A DNA stretch of 64,000 bases from Brevinematales bacterium (GTDB lineage: Bacteria; Spirochaetota; Brevinematia; Brevinematales; JAOACQ01), in the NCBI GenBank assembly GCA_020052515.1, contig JAGVOW010000061.1:1-64000 (forward strand). Reading direction: 5' to 3'. Positions within the stretch are counted from its first letter, which is position 1, and every line of letters starts with the position of its first letter. The translations under genes and the position numbers were made by a program. The notes under the pieces are model-generated. The model saw only the letters and a list, made by a program, of their open reading frames with translations, was not told the origin of the DNA and did no database searches. Of this stretch, positions 54,090-60,759 are shown piece after piece.

Positions 54090-55235
54090 CTATTTCTTTT
54101 GTTCTCTTTGCGGATTTCCCAGATAAGTACAGGCCTGAGGGACATCCCGCATCTCAATAACGGAAAATGTTTGATTGTCAAAAGCGCCCGCTTCCTTTAA
54201 TGCGCCTAATATTTGTTCCGACTGGTTTACGGATACAATCATATCGCTTTCTTCCCGGGCCGGAGAAGGATTTCCGTTAGATTCTTTTCCATAATTATAA
54301 AAACTCGATCTGCAGATGGTCGCTCCAGCAGCGCCAACAGCCATAGATTCTCGAACTAAATCTCCCGCTCTCCCTTCGTTGCAAATTAAAGACAGGTCGA
54401 CTAAATTTTTTAAATAACAACGGCTTTTATCATCGTTATCTGCGTTTGCCAATGACCCTTTTTTTCTCCACTCATTACTGCCTTTTAAATCATCCACAGC
54501 CATAATAATCTGCTCTACGCTTGCCGCGTACCTCATTCTTCCTCTATATATTTTTAAATTAATCAAGGCTTTATTTACCGGGTAAAGATAAATAAAACCT
54601 TTTCCCGGCTGATCGAGCTTGCCCGCTTCAATGAGCGCTTTCATCACTCCCTGAGCGTCATTCTTTTCGGCCAGCAAGTTGACTACTTCCTTTTCCGCAG
54701 GAATAGTGATCCTCAAAAGGCCAAGTTTATCTCTCAAGCCCGTACCCTGGCCGAATGTAATGGATGGAACGCATATTCCCATTTCCAGAACAGCCTGAGC
54801 GATATTATTACCCTGCCCTCTTTGAACAATACAGGATATCCCATAAAGATCGGTTTGAAAATAAAAATCTTTTTCAGATTTAGTTTTTAATGATTTCAAA
54901 GAAGAATCAAAGGAATAATCCTCCAATAGCTGTATCGCTTCTGAATAAATAGTGCATCTTCCCGGAATAGATAAGCCTGACTCCGCAACAAGGAATGAGA
55001 GAATATCTTCTTCTCTATCCGCAGGGACATAAAATTTATAGATATCTAAGGGATCTTCATCCAGGCCAGTCCCTGAAATTGCCCCAAATATATTTTTCTT
55101 TTCCCTGAGGACAATAGCCCTCCCGGCTTGAACATGAAAACGTTCTATGCCGGCTTTTTGAAGGGCATCTTTAAACAAATGAGACACGCCCTTGTATATT
55201 TCGCAAGTGATTTTTTTCACTTTATTTTTTCTCAT
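54090..55235 (-). CDS. Protein with apparent tandem PII-like (GlnB-fold) domains
   Basis: Middle unit 'ISCIVQRGQGNNIAQAVLEMGICVPSITFGQGTGLRDKLGLLRITIPAEKEVVNLLAEKNDAQGVMKALIEAGKLDQPGKGFIYLYPV' reads as PII-like; similar patterns flank it on both sides; adjacent to DUF1538 gene. Confidence 0.65.
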   Translation of the reverse strand: MRKNKVKKITCEIYKGVSHLFKDALQKAGIERFHVQAGRAIVLREKKNIFGAISGTGLDEDPLDIYKFYVPADREEDILSFLVAESGLSIPGRCTIYSEAIQLLEDYSFDSSLKSLKTKSEKDFYFQTDLYGISCIVQRGQGNNIAQAVLEMGICVPSITFGQGTGLRDKLGLLRITIPAEKEVVNLLAEKNDAQGVMKALIEAGKLDQPGKGFIYLYPVNKALINLKIYRGRMRYAASVEQIIMAVDDLKGSNEWRKKGSLANADNDDKSRCYLKNLVDLSLICNEGRAGDLVRESMAVGAAGATICRSSFYNYGKESNGNPSPAREESDMIVSVNQSEQILGALKEAGAFDNQTFSVIEMRDVPQACTYLGNPQREQKK

Positions 55236-55249
55236 TTCAATGCTCCTGA

Positions 55250-57265
55250 CTATTTAGTTACTTGAAGATCGGTACGCCGCTTTTGATTAACATACAATCC
55301 TACCAAAAGCACAGATAAAATAGGAAAAACAGACGCGCAGGCCAATATCCCAAATCCTTCCACGACCCCGACCTGCCCGCCAATTCCAAGGCCCATTGCT
55401 AAAACCAGCGGAACCGTTATAGGGCCTGTTGTAACCCCCGCGCTATCCCAGCCGATATTAACAAATTCCTCACTGGAAATTTTTGTGATCAGCAACAATA
55501 TGAGATAAGGCGGCGTCAGCAGAAAAATAAGCGGAATATTCCAGATGATTTTAGCGACTCCCACAGCTATCCCAATTCCTACTCCAACCGCTACTGCCTG
55601 CATTAAAAGCGATTTTTTAAACGTACCGACTGTTAATTCCTCTACTTTTATTCCCAACGCGTTCAAAGCGGGCTCCGCCAAGGTCGCCCCATAACCCATA
55701 ATAAAACCAAACAACAATACAATTAAGATTCCCCACAATCCTCCTTCATTGCCAAAAAGAGGCCCTCTTTTTGGGACAAAAGAATATTGCTTCATTACGG
55801 GGTTGTAATTACTGACATCAAATGGAAGTGCGACATAATTTTGATTCAATTTAGTATAAAAAAAACTTTCCGTTGTACCGTCAGGAGATAAAGATCTCTG
55901 TAATAATTTAAGGTCAAATCCATTGATAACCTGCTTCTGATCGGTAAGGCTGATCGCTTTAAAAGAAGAGGGAAGTTTTTCTCCCACTTGATTACCCAGT
56001 TTTGACAATCCAAGCTCAATGCCGGCATTAAACAACCCAAGCCCAATCACAGCAAAAGAAATTCCAAGAATCACTTCATCAAAGCGCGGCAATTTTTCCC
56101 TGAGAATGATAACCAATACCAATACAAGTAAAATACAGAGCGGAATAATAGCCTGCACGGCAAGAATTCCATTTCGAATGAAAATCGGACCTGCCATCGA
56201 AGCATTTTCTGCCGATTGCCCTTTCCAGCGGAAATATTCCTCATCGTTTCCAAAAACAGCTTTTCTCTTCTGGCTGTCTAAAGCAAGCGTGCTCATAAAA
56301 CTATTCATCTGAGCGCCATTGTTATTAAAAAAAGACAGCACTCCTTTGTCAGAAGAATTTTTTAAGGCATACCCTGTCATTTTATCTTCATTTTCAAACA
56401 AGATTATGGTTTTTGCGCGGTTTGAAGGATGAAAAAAACTTTCCTCATGCATCGGCTTCGGAACCCCTGAATTCAGAATTAGCCCCAAAAGCATGACGGT
56501 TATTACTGGAAAAGCGGAAGCCAGAGTAACCACCCCAAACCCGGAAGAAGCGCCCGATTTTTTCACGACAATCCTGGAAATACCGATCCCCAGAGCTATC
56601 ACTAAAGGAACAGTAACCGGCCCTGTGGTAACACCGCCGCAATCCCAGGCAACCCCGGTAACATACATCATATTTGGATCAAAAAAAGCCCATATCGACA
56701 AGGGAATAAGTATCAAAGTAAAAATATAAATAAAAGGTTTTAATGACCATCCATATAAAAAGCGCAGCATCCCAAAAACAACCGCAATCCCCACTCCAAT
56801 CGCGACCGCGTATACCAGATAATTTGAATATTTATTTAACAAAAGAAAAAGCAAAGGCGCGTCCCATGCTTTTACGGAAGACCCGGCGGCTTTTAAAACC
56901 CCAATAGCGGGCTCCGCGAATGTAACGCCCATACCCAGGACAAAGGAAAAAATTAAAATGAAGAGAAGCCCTGATTTCTGAGGCAGCTTAATTCCGCATA
57001 TTTCACCCAGCGGCATGAGTCCTATGAGAAGGCCTTCCATAAAAAAAGCAAGCCCCGCCACTACTAACCCGATTCCAAGAGCGATAACCGCAGACTCAGC
57101 GACAGGTATACCCAGAATAATAATCTGGAAAAACACCAGATAAAGAACAATCAAAGAGACAGATTGGATTTGTTCCTTAAACTTGGAAACAGCATAAGGA
57201 AAAATCATTCCTATAGCTTCCGTGAATTTTACCTTAATCTTGCCCGCTGATTGCTGAATCGACAT
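55250..57265 (-). CDS. DUF1538 membrane protein, two DUF1538 units fused (UmpA+UmpB-like)
   Basis: Multi-TM; internal repeat 'GVAWDCGGVTTGPVTVPLVIALGIGI' and 'NIGWDSAGVTTGPITVPLVLAMGLGIG', plus paired 'MGVTFAEPAIGVLKAAG' / 'YGATLAEPALNALG'; likely start M12 (MSIQQSAGKIKVKF). Confidence 0.85.
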   Translation of the reverse strand: MSIQQSAGKIKVKFTEAIGMIFPYAVSKFKEQIQSVSLIVLYLVFFQIIILGIPVAESAVIALGIGLVVAGLAFFMEGLLIGLMPLGEICGIKLPQKSGLLFILIFSFVLGMGVTFAEPAIGVLKAAGSSVKAWDAPLLFLLLNKYSNYLVYAVAIGVGIAVVFGMLRFLYGWSLKPFIYIFTLILIPLSIWAFFDPNMMYVTGVAWDCGGVTTGPVTVPLVIALGIGISRIVVKKSGASSGFGVVTLASAFPVITVMLLGLILNSGVPKPMHEESFFHPSNRAKTIILFENEDKMTGYALKNSSDKGVLSFFNNNGAQMNSFMSTLALDSQKRKAVFGNDEEYFRWKGQSAENASMAGPIFIRNGILAVQAIIPLCILLVLVLVIILREKLPRFDEVILGISFAVIGLGLFNAGIELGLSKLGNQVGEKLPSSFKAISLTDQKQVINGFDLKLLQRSLSPDGTTESFFYTKLNQNYVALPFDVSNYNPVMKQYSFVPKRGPLFGNEGGLWGILIVLLFGFIMGYGATLAEPALNALGIKVEELTVGTFKKSLLMQAVAVGVGIGIAVGVAKIIWNIPLIFLLTPPYLILLLITKISSEEFVNIGWDSAGVTTGPITVPLVLAMGLGIGGQVGVVEGFGILACASVFPILSVLLVGLYVNQKRRTDLQVTK

Positions 57266-57335
57266 GGTGACTCCTCGAAAGTATTTCTGACAATACACTA
57301 ATTATCGACAAACAGCGCTTAATATTTTAAAGTTT

Positions 57336-57638
57336 TTAAGAATTATAATCGAGCACAACCCTATCCTGCCTCACTTTCGAAACAAATTCCGTCGCCTTTT
57401 TGTGTTCCGGGTGGTGTTGATAACGGTCCAGCGCCTTTTCATCCTCAAACTCAGAAACCAGAGCCACATCATAAGCCCCTTCCGATAAACTAATATTAAT
57501 TCCCACTTCTAATTGGATAATTTCCGGGATTTTTTCCTTCAACCCTTCCAGAAGCTCTTTTAATTTCCTGGCATTTCTTTCCTTGCTTGACCCCAGAGCC
57601 TCATCTTTAAGCCTCCACATCACAATGTGTTTTATCAT
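57336..57638 (-). CDS. Stress-responsive A/B barrel (Dabb) domain protein
   Basis: MIKHIVMWRLKDEA...LEGLKEKIPEIIQLEVGINI..YDVALVSEFEDEKALDRYQHHPEHKKATEFV. Confidence 0.88.
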   Translation of the reverse strand: MIKHIVMWRLKDEALGSSKERNARKLKELLEGLKEKIPEIIQLEVGINISLSEGAYDVALVSEFEDEKALDRYQHHPEHKKATEFVSKVRQDRVVLDYNS

Positions 57639-58576
57639 GAAATCCCCCTATGTGCATCTAACCATACGATAATATCCTTCGTGGCCTCGTCCCGGTTGGT
57701 CTCATTGAGAAGCTCATGCCGGGCACCTGGATAAAAACGGTAAGCAATATCTTGAATGCCCAATTTTTGATAAGCTTTTATAAGAGAACGAACGGTTTTA
57801 GTTTTTTGGCCTACCGGGTCCATTTCGCCTGCTATCAAATAAATCGGCAAATTTTTCGCGATTTTAGACATTTCTTTCCGACTGTGAATCCATCTGAGCC
57901 ACACCGCCAGATCGTAAAAATACCCCGACGGAAAAATAGTCCCGCAATAAGGATCATTTTTATATTTGTCCACCTCGGCAATATCCCTGGAAATCCAGTC
58001 ATAACGAGTCCGGGTCGGTTTAAAATCGTTATTGTAGGAACCCATCCCCAGAGACAACAAAAACGGGCTCTTCTGATCCCTGCTGCCTCTGATGAATATT
58101 TCCAGCCCTGCCAAAACAAGGCCAATGTCGGCCAAAATTCTTACTTTCCCTATAGTCCCTGATAAAATCACGCCTTTCAAGTTTTCACCATACTGGGAAA
58201 TATACCCCTGAACTAAAAACGACCCCATGCTGTGGCCAAATAGAAAAAGAGAAAGTCCCGGATGCTCCTTTTGAATGATTTCTGAGAGCTGCCGCATATC
58301 TCCCATCATCCAGGAAAAGCCGTCTTTATCAGCGATAATGCCCAGTTTTTCCACATCTCCTACAGTCCTTCCATGCCCCCGATGGTCATTAGCGTAAACA
58401 ATGTATCCGGCTTTGGTTAAAGCCTGCGCAAAGCGCTCATAACGAAAGGCATGCTCAGCCATACCATGAGAAATCTGGACTACCGCTTTAGGTGTAATTT
58501 TTTCTTCCGGAAGCCAGTAATAAACAAAAATCTCAGCGCCTTCTTTGTCCTTGAAGGCAAATGTCTTTGTTCTCAT
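57635..58576 (-). CDS. Alpha/beta hydrolase, monoacylglycerol lipase-like
   Basis: VVQISHGMAEHAFRYERFAQAL; ANDHRGHGRT; FLFGHSMGSFLVQ (GxSxG); start trimmed to 58576 (SD gggaga). Confidence 0.88.
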   Translation of the reverse strand: MRTKTFAFKDKEGAEIFVYYWLPEEKITPKAVVQISHGMAEHAFRYERFAQALTKAGYIVYANDHRGHGRTVGDVEKLGIIADKDGFSWMMGDMRQLSEIIQKEHPGLSLFLFGHSMGSFLVQGYISQYGENLKGVILSGTIGKVRILADIGLVLAGLEIFIRGSRDQKSPFLLSLGMGSYNNDFKPTRTRYDWISRDIAEVDKYKNDPYCGTIFPSGYFYDLAVWLRWIHSRKEMSKIAKNLPIYLIAGEMDPVGQKTKTVRSLIKAYQKLGIQDIAYRFYPGARHELLNETNRDEATKDIIVWLDAHRGIS

Positions 58577-58938
58577 TATTCTCCCCGGATTTTTTGCCTC
58601 GCTTAAAAAGTTACTGATTATTATATAATCTTCTGTATCAAAAAAGCAAAAAAATACCAAATTCGTCTTTCCAGATAGATCATTCTGCAGCATCCGCAAA
58701 ATGTAGAACAAACAAAGCTCACAACCAAAATAGCCCTAAGGTACTTTTTAAAACATAGAAAAATTGTCATAAATTTTTTCTTTACATTTATAAATAAATC
58801 AATTATACTACTAATGAGGTTAGACTAGCAATTCACTTCACTTCTCTCTGAATTCAAAAAAATTCGAATTTTAGCTCAATGCATCAGGCCCCTTTATTAT
58901 TGCTTTTACCGATCCTTTTAGTTTGTAGAGGTACAAAA

Positions 58939-60759
58939 ATGACAGGGAACAATCATTCCTTTCATATACCCGTTATGGGTATCGGCTTTACGATTGATAC
59001 TCCGCTTAAGGTAGCAAAATATGGGATATCTTCCGTGATATCGCTGGTAGATGACGCTCTGATAGAGAATGTCCGAAAAAAAATATGCGCTGATTTCAAT
59101 TTGGAGTACAGCGAAATATCTTCGAGCGAACCGGATAGCCGGGCGAGAAGAATTACTGAATACTTGAATCTCTTAAACCGCCTGGTAAACCGGCAATTTG
59201 AGGCACTCAAAAACTCCGGTTTCGAAAATGGTTCTGAAATCACGATTTTCTTTAACTATTTACCAGATGACTCTCCGCTCAAGGTAATGTATCTGGAACA
59301 GGCAAAAACTCCAGACACAGCCAAACTGCAAAAACTTCGCGAAGATCTCCTGAAATTAATCAATCCAGGTGATATTGACGTCAACATTATGGTAAAGCTA
59401 GACAAAAGTCACTACAAAAATGGGGGGGAATTAGCTCCAGAATACTCCGAAGCACTTTCAGCGTTACGCGGATACGCAAAAAGCGGCCTCTATTCATCCA
59501 TCATACTTTCTGCCGGTTTTAATAGACGCCTTGCCGCTTATATGGAAAATTTTGACGATTTCTTCCCCGATGAGCAGGGATTTTTGAAAAAGAAAATTAC
59601 GTTGAAAGTAAGCGATTTCCGCTCGGCTCAAACACAATCAAAGTTTTATGCTAAAAAAGGATTGTGGGTGTCTGAGTACCGCTTGGAGTCCGGCTTGAAT
59701 TGTGGCGGACATGCCTTCGCGACAGAAGGAGAATTGATGGGGCCGATTTTAGAGGACTTTAAAACCAAAAGGCCCGAGTTGATAGGAACTAATTTTGAAT
59801 ATTACCAGAAAGCCATTGAAGAAAAAAAAGGCTTTACTTTAAAAAATCCTCCCGTCTCTTTGATAACAGCGCAGGGCGGCGTCGGTACTGCATCGGAGCA
59901 TAGATTTCTCCGCAACTATTACCAGCTGGACAGCATTGGGTGGGGTTCCCCTTTCTTGCTTGTCCCTGAATCCGTGAATATTGACGAGGGAACGCTAAAA
60001 AAACTGGCATCTGCCGGTGAAAATGAAATTCAATTGAGCAATATCTCTCCTCTGGGTGTGCGATTCTATACCCTGGTAAATTCTGAAAGCGAGCTCGCGA
60101 AAAAGAAAAGAATAGAATCTGGCAAGCCAGGAAGCCCTTGCACCAAAGGTTTCTTGATGCTGAACACAGAGCTGTCTGAGAAACCGGTCTGCATCGCGTC
60201 AAACATTTACCAGCAATTAAAGATCAAATCTCTGCAAAATCAATCGCTCACTGATGCGCAATACCAGGAAAAATTTGCTGATGTGGTCGCGAAAGCATGC
60301 CTCTGCAAGGACCTTTCCGGTTCCGTTGAGATCAACTACGAATTAAAACCGGAAGCGGCTGAAAAACTGACTCCAGCTGTCTGCCCCGGCCCTAACCTGG
60401 CCTTTTTTTCAAAGATTTCTTCATTAAAAGATATGATCAGTCATATTTACGGAAGACTCAACCTCATTACACAGAAAAGGCCGCATATTTTTATCAACGA
60501 ATTAAAGCTTTATCTGAATCATTTAGTAAAAGACATCGCGGATTGTACAAAGGAACAATCGGCCCGAAAAACAGAAAGTCTGAGGAACACTTACCGTAAT
60601 TTGCTCAATGGAATTGAATACTATAAAAAAATTGCGGCTCACTTTGCGGAAGAACCTGAAGACTTTAAAACCGCTTTCCAGCAAGGGCTGTCTGCATTAA
60701 CAGAACAGCTGGAGAATACCGTTCGCAATAACCCAATCCTGAGCTCAGTCTCACCCTGA
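58939..60759 (+). CDS. Large conserved-looking protein of unknown function
   Basis: 'HIPVMGIGFTIDTPLKVAKYGISSVISLVDDALIE'; 'VSLITAQGGVGTASEHRFL'; Cys motifs LNCGGHAF, SPCTKGF, ACLCKDLSG, VCPGPN; start trimmed to 58939. Confidence 0.65.
   Translation: MTGNNHSFHIPVMGIGFTIDTPLKVAKYGISSVISLVDDALIENVRKKICADFNLEYSEISSSEPDSRARRITEYLNLLNRLVNRQFEALKNSGFENGSEITIFFNYLPDDSPLKVMYLEQAKTPDTAKLQKLREDLLKLINPGDIDVNIMVKLDKSHYKNGGELAPEYSEALSALRGYAKSGLYSSIILSAGFNRRLAAYMENFDDFFPDEQGFLKKKITLKVSDFRSAQTQSKFYAKKGLWVSEYRLESGLNCGGHAFATEGELMGPILEDFKTKRPELIGTNFEYYQKAIEEKKGFTLKNPPVSLITAQGGVGTASEHRFLRNYYQLDSIGWGSPFLLVPESVNIDEGTLKKLASAGENEIQLSNISPLGVRFYTLVNSESELAKKKRIESGKPGSPCTKGFLMLNTELSEKPVCIASNIYQQLKIKSLQNQSLTDAQYQEKFADVVAKACLCKDLSGSVEINYELKPEAAEKLTPAVCPGPNLAFFSKISSLKDMISHIYGRLNLITQKRPHIFINELKLYLNHLVKDIADCTKEQSARKTESLRNTYRNLLNGIEYYKKIAAHFAEEPEDFKTAFQQGLSALTEQLENTVRNNPILSSVSP

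Follow-up and report, generated by a model that had tools for sequence, protein, structure and literature searches.

What is encoded by the gene directly downstream of a fused DUF1538 transporter gene in a spirochaete, and what might its product do there? The window (the whole stretch of 64,000 nucleotides from a Brevinematales bacterium analyzed here) contains, on the minus strand, a gene for a fused two-unit DUF1538 membrane protein (55250..57265) and, downstream of it after a gap of 14 nt, a gene for a 381-aa protein (54090..55235), which the preliminary description had read as three linked PII-like domains that could jointly gate the transporter. The coordinates, strand and gap of the pair given there were all found to be correct.

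Locus layout and gene starts

Good ribosome-binding sites are present at both starts: AGGAG upstream of the ATG of the gene for the 381-aa protein, and GAGGAG ahead of the ATG at 57265, the best start of the DUF1538 gene, from which a 671-aa product is obtained. This product does consist of two fused units, as initially described; the length of 682 aa first assigned to it, however, is reached only from an upstream GTG at 57298. Directly upstream of the DUF1538 gene and on the same strand (57336-58711) are genes for a Dabb stress-response protein and an alpha/beta hydrolase, which are perhaps co-transcribed with it in the window; neither was seen as a recurring neighbour in the relatives. A 626-aa protein without a convincing Pfam match (best E 0.046) is encoded at 58879-60759.

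Three PII domains in a single chain

Direct searches were insufficient to classify the 381-aa protein: taken alone, it produced no Pfam (including PF00543) or NCBIfam match, and a search of the PDB with the single sequence gave nothing better than E 0.15. Its PII character was reached by profile methods, with family alignments that comprised at first five spirochaete members, including the one from the window, and later 41 near-complete proteins. Altogether, 44 triple-PII loci were retrieved, with record names that span more than ten phyla; as metagenome bins account for many of them, individual phylum labels may be in error. The tree of the triple-PII proteins shows a family that is patchy across phyla, with the window protein grouping with two other spirochaetes and one member from Bacillota.

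All three thirds of the protein are PII superfamily domains, by both fold and homology. The thirds are homologous to one another (98.4, 92.5 and 98.5% in hhalign) and to the canonical PIIs that the same genome encodes (95.0, 86.4 and 90.9%, hhalign), and profile-profile comparison with the single PIIs adjoining DUF1538 in Alphaproteobacteria yielded 96.3, 98.6 and 97.3%; by profile, domain 1 is the nearest to canonical PII, and domain 2 is the nearest to the single PIIs that accompany DUF1538 elsewhere. Chance resemblance, or similarity at the level of the fold only, is ruled out because the Dabb protein of the window, which we take to have a ferredoxin-like fold, scored 0.1% against every PII profile. 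The family profile matched solved PII proteins with E values down to 1.1e-6, the best of these in domain 1 (54918..55214, minus strand, as are the other two; residues 8-106). Domain 2 (54552..54857, residues 127-228) carries the conserved T-loop GxGTGLRDKLGLLRITIPAEKE and the B-loop LDQPGKGFIY, and domain 3 (54120..54422, residues 272-372) has a degenerate B-loop. Matches to PF00543 were produced by 21 of the 41 family members (E up to 1, best 9.4e-13), and the domain count was exactly three in each of the 41. The AlphaFold2 model built on the alignment (pLDDT 82.8, pTM 0.83) contains three beta-alpha-beta-beta-alpha-beta folds, at residues 4-103, 127-224 and 278-370, and Foldseek searches with this model returned PII matches at probability 1.00. 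The reading of the middle third as PII-like, with a similar domain on each side, is thus borne out by profile-profile comparison, domain count, AlphaFold2 and Foldseek, with three predicted PII folds and not fewer.

The fused DUF1538 protein

PF07556 (DUF1538) matches the membrane protein twice, with 358.5 bits over the whole fused chain against a cut-off of 22.6, and 185.7 and 181 bits on the single units. Unit 1 (56477..57151, minus strand) contains the motif WDCGGVTTGPVTVP, and unit 2 (55295..56134, minus strand), which includes a beta-rich insert, contains the motif WDSAGVTTGPITVP; between them lies a soluble helical segment (56192..56470, minus strand; residues about 277-369 of the 682-aa reading) that is predicted to be extracytoplasmic from the distribution of charges. 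In the AlphaFold2 model (pLDDT 83.2, pTM 0.82), unit 1 shows a helix pattern that is repeated in unit 2, with about seven long helical segments per unit and helices broken at the AEPA and TTGPxTVP motifs. Loop charges suggest that the two units are oppositely oriented and that both soluble inserts point away from the cytoplasm. The inserts were considered as docking sites for PII and are unlikely to serve as such because the charge counts place them outside the cytoplasm. A Foldseek search of the PDB with the model (window 55250-57298) gave no confident match (best E 0.023, probability 0.25); judging from the model, the DUF1538 fold may be new.

The UmpA and UmpB proteins of Halomonas zhaodongensis are likewise two homologous DUF1538 units. 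Unlike UmpA and UmpB, the units in the window are fused in one chain, carry two soluble inserts, are encoded alongside a triple PII, and score far under the cut-offs of the NCBIfam UmpA and UmpB equivalogs (218.8 and 156.1 bits vs 490 and 500, respectively). DUF1538 was detected in 105 of the 249 Pseudomonadota genomes and 52 of the 150 Bacillota genomes sampled.

PII proteins as general partners of DUF1538

Co-occurrence of the two genes across genomes, on which the preliminary description had made its proposal depend, is essentially complete. A fused DUF1538 gene is found directly upstream, on the same strand, in 40 of the 40 triple-PII loci with a contig that reaches upstream (more than ten phyla). 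Among 149 Spirochaetota genomes, 26 have a DUF1538 match that exceeds the cut-off, each time with an adjoining double or triple PII gene, compared with a multi-domain PII in 1 of the 123 genomes without DUF1538 (an orphan double PII; Fisher p 3e-28 for genome co-occurrence of DUF1538 and multi-domain PII in this phylum). For Pseudomonadota and Bacillota, the 30 best-scoring loci each, not a random draw, were surveyed: one PII gene lies downstream of DUF1538 in 29/30 loci of the former, and PII adjoins DUF1538 in 30/30 loci of the latter, at least 17 of which have a fused double PII, four a pair of adjacent singles and most others one PII. Two further examples, from plasmids, have the annotated order DUF1538, DUF1538, P-II. 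The loci from Spirochaetota, Pseudomonadota, Bacillota and plasmids therefore identify PII as a general partner of DUF1538, and the PII copy number next to DUF1538 climbs from one domain to two to three, the triple form extending the series.

The single P-II regulators of Pseudomonadota (e.g., Methylocystis WP_124740562.1) share with the window protein both the DUF1538 neighbour and the domain family, and align with its domain 2 without gaps over 94 columns (98.6% probability); they have one domain per chain, whereas three non-identical domains are fused in the window protein. The double PIIs of Bacillota and other spirochaetes are likewise tandem PIIs, encoded immediately after a DUF1538 pair or fusion, but have two domains and a fused DUF1538 partner that is shorter (about 460-610 aa) than that of the window. 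In a mirror-tree comparison of 37 loci, the PII and DUF1538 distance matrices have a correlation of 0.90, against 0.45 at best in 2000 permutations, an agreement that also follows from shared operon inheritance. No third conserved partner was found near the pair, no other gene being common to more than four loci. The conserved operon of transporter and PII by which systems of the GlnK-AmtB type are recognized is thus present.

One contig (L102, G146:C158) contains two divergent DUF1538 and triple-PII operons, the second triple-PII frame having a TAA or running into the contig end. In another genome (L104, G137:C136), the PII reading behind a DUF1538 fusion contains TGA and TAA stops and is likely a decayed copy, and a second copy is intact. 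The orphan double-PII gene of the spirochaete without DUF1538 (L101, G097:C11, 2953-3564) adjoins genes resembling luxS and 5'-methylthioadenosine/S-adenosylhomocysteine nucleosidase.

Unequal sites in the triple-PII protein

Only domain 2 keeps strongly conserved T- and B-loops, and therefore the three sites are unequal. The information content of the T- and B-loops is the highest in domain 2 (3.28 and 3.68 bits per column, respectively), compared with about 1.9-2.7 in the other two domains (2.01 and 2.72 in domain 1; 1.92 and 2.03, the lowest, in domain 3), in line with the earlier suggestion that the sites are free to diverge. The B-loop positions read PGRC, PGKGF and NQTFS, the canonical GDGK not being there, and the T-loop uridylylation motif YRGAEY (Y-[KR]-G-[AS]-[AE]-Y) is absent from the triple-PII protein; ordinary ATP/2-oxoglutarate sensing therefore cannot be assumed. 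The domains are joined by linkers of 20 and about 50 residues, of which the one after domain 2 (linker 2, 54435..54518, minus strand, residues 240-267) has two predicted helices and bears the motif EQI..AID..KG..WR, in which Q242, D248, W256 and R257 (A3 numbering) do not vary among the 41 relatives; this motif was not seen in the spirochaete double-PII set.

Two different PII chains also work together in NifI1/NifI2, but these are separate, unfused chains that control nitrogenase and not a transporter, in contrast to the fused protein of the window. The triple-PII family profile matched PDB 9p1x, which contains two types of PII chain at a ratio of 12:6 and which may be a NifI1/NifI2 pair. In a spirochaete genome of our set (G000, contig C9:25815-26515, L099 and L100), two adjacent PII genes resemble NifI1 and NifI2, a hint of nitrogen fixation by that organism.

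The transported ion

UmpAB of H. zhaodongensis, which consists of two separate DUF1538 proteins that are both needed, was reported to be a Na+(Li+,K+)/H+ antiporter, an assignment obtained in salt-sensitive E. coli in one study that mentions no PII (PMC5484666). By analogy with this one published pair, studied without a PII partner, DUF1538 proteins may be cation/H+ antiporters. Cation-channel families are among the commonest in the 100 genes flanking the DUF1538-PII pair (Ion_trans, 4; TrkA_N, 3), and K+ channel, TrkA-like or Kup genes are adjacent in six relatives. Among the 98 genes located further out, none of these families was represented by two or more listed members (a family with one match may be missing from the list), and a phmmer search there for homologues of K+ channel, TrkA-like or Kup proteins found none. 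These neighbours agree, as circumstantial evidence, with a cation-balance role for the pair. No K+ channel, TrkA-like or Kup gene neighbours the pair in the window itself. In a groundwater spirochaete (L020, 2-7101), two Kup-type K+ transporters are encoded in line upstream, followed by the fused DUF1538 protein and the triple PII.

It is possible, if rather doubtful, that DUF1538 carries something besides Na+ or K+, such as an anion or an osmolyte, and is gated by PII all the same: the antiporter assignment comes from a single study in salt-sensitive E. coli, the Foldseek search with the DUF1538 model gave no confident transporter match, and the transporters known to be gated by PII have ammonium, nitrate, urea and bicarbonate as substrates (PMC10710835), whereas no neighbour families are commoner around the pair than K+ channels and TrkA-like proteins, and Kup occurs twice.

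A putative gating module

PII proteins gate AmtB, Nrt, Urt and SbtA; a PII-type protein binds and blocks AmtB and SbtA, and glnK and amtB are genetically linked (PMC10710835). It is fairly probable, in our judgment, that the two genes form a module in which the triple PII is a covalent, asymmetric pseudo-trimer that gates a single-chain UmpAB-like transporter, the gating being suggested by gene linkage and by the analogy with GlnK-AmtB and SbtB-SbtA. We infer the assembly, ligand, docking and ion of such a module as follows. The upstream gene would encode a single-chain UmpA-UmpB-like transporter of two DUF1538 units, presumably for cations, and the downstream gene a dedicated cytoplasmic PII-type sensor, the three fused domains of which would fold as an intramolecular pseudo-trimer with unequal clefts. 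An effector, for which an adenine nucleotide or a metabolite like it is the most likely candidate, would bind at the cleft that the conserved T- and B-loops of domain 2 form and would alter how the pseudo-trimer docks on the DUF1538 protein at its cytoplasmic face; the changed docking would block or release ion transport, as GlnK does on AmtB and SbtB on SbtA. Domains 1 and 3, together with the conserved linker, would mainly serve as a scaffold and docking surface.

The single-chain pseudo-trimer fits the pTM of 0.83 for the triple-PII model: a much lower value is expected for three domains that are not fixed relative to one another, so that a compact arrangement is likely, and probably a threefold one, for which the pTM is the sole source. 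A simple single-chain trimer is impossible for the many double-PII relatives, and fusion therefore does not necessarily imply a pseudo-trimer. We consider it unlikely that the triple-PII chain instead forms part of a larger oligomer, such as one in which three chains give stacked PII-like trimers of like domains, given that the monomer prediction implies a defined three-domain arrangement within one chain and that the domain number is exactly three in 41/41 members; still, the double-PII relatives (14/14 counted in the spirochaetes, at least 17 in Bacillota) could form PII trimers only by the association of several chains, the triple-PII family may retain this habit, and linkers as long as 20 and about 50 residues would permit domain swapping. 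That the PII protein controls something else, such as nitrogen metabolism, and merely shares a transcription unit with DUF1538 is very improbable: PII proteins can have several targets (PMC10710835), and the orphan double-PII gene stands without DUF1538 beside luxS- and nucleosidase-like genes, but the pairing recurs in groups that were surveyed separately, where no other neighbour is conserved, the genome of the window has four further PII genes for canonical roles, and the canonical PII motifs are missing.

The gating pseudo-trimer that we favour would differ from GlnK-AmtB and SbtB-SbtA, where a homotrimeric PII acts on a trimeric transporter, in that a single asymmetric PII chain would act on a fused two-unit transporter. 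According to a review, PII control of this kind appears to be restricted to transporters able to be trimers (PMC10710835). Tentatively, the triple PII may be a covalent hetero-trimer without threefold symmetry, suited to an antiparallel fused-pair transporter, with one signalling cleft and two docking clefts; if true, this would break the pattern of PII acting only on transporters that can be trimers.

In the open-access literature (subscription journals were outside the scope of the search), no publication joining DUF1538 with PII was found, and nothing relevant on tandem or fused PII trimers. The association described here ties a widespread family known only as DUF1538, the sole published pair of which was studied without a PII, to a dedicated PII sensor. 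With a two-unit transporter controlled by one PII chain whose sites are unequal, the trimer-only rule would become testable, and the triple PII allows the sites to be mutated one at a time, which a homotrimeric PII does not.
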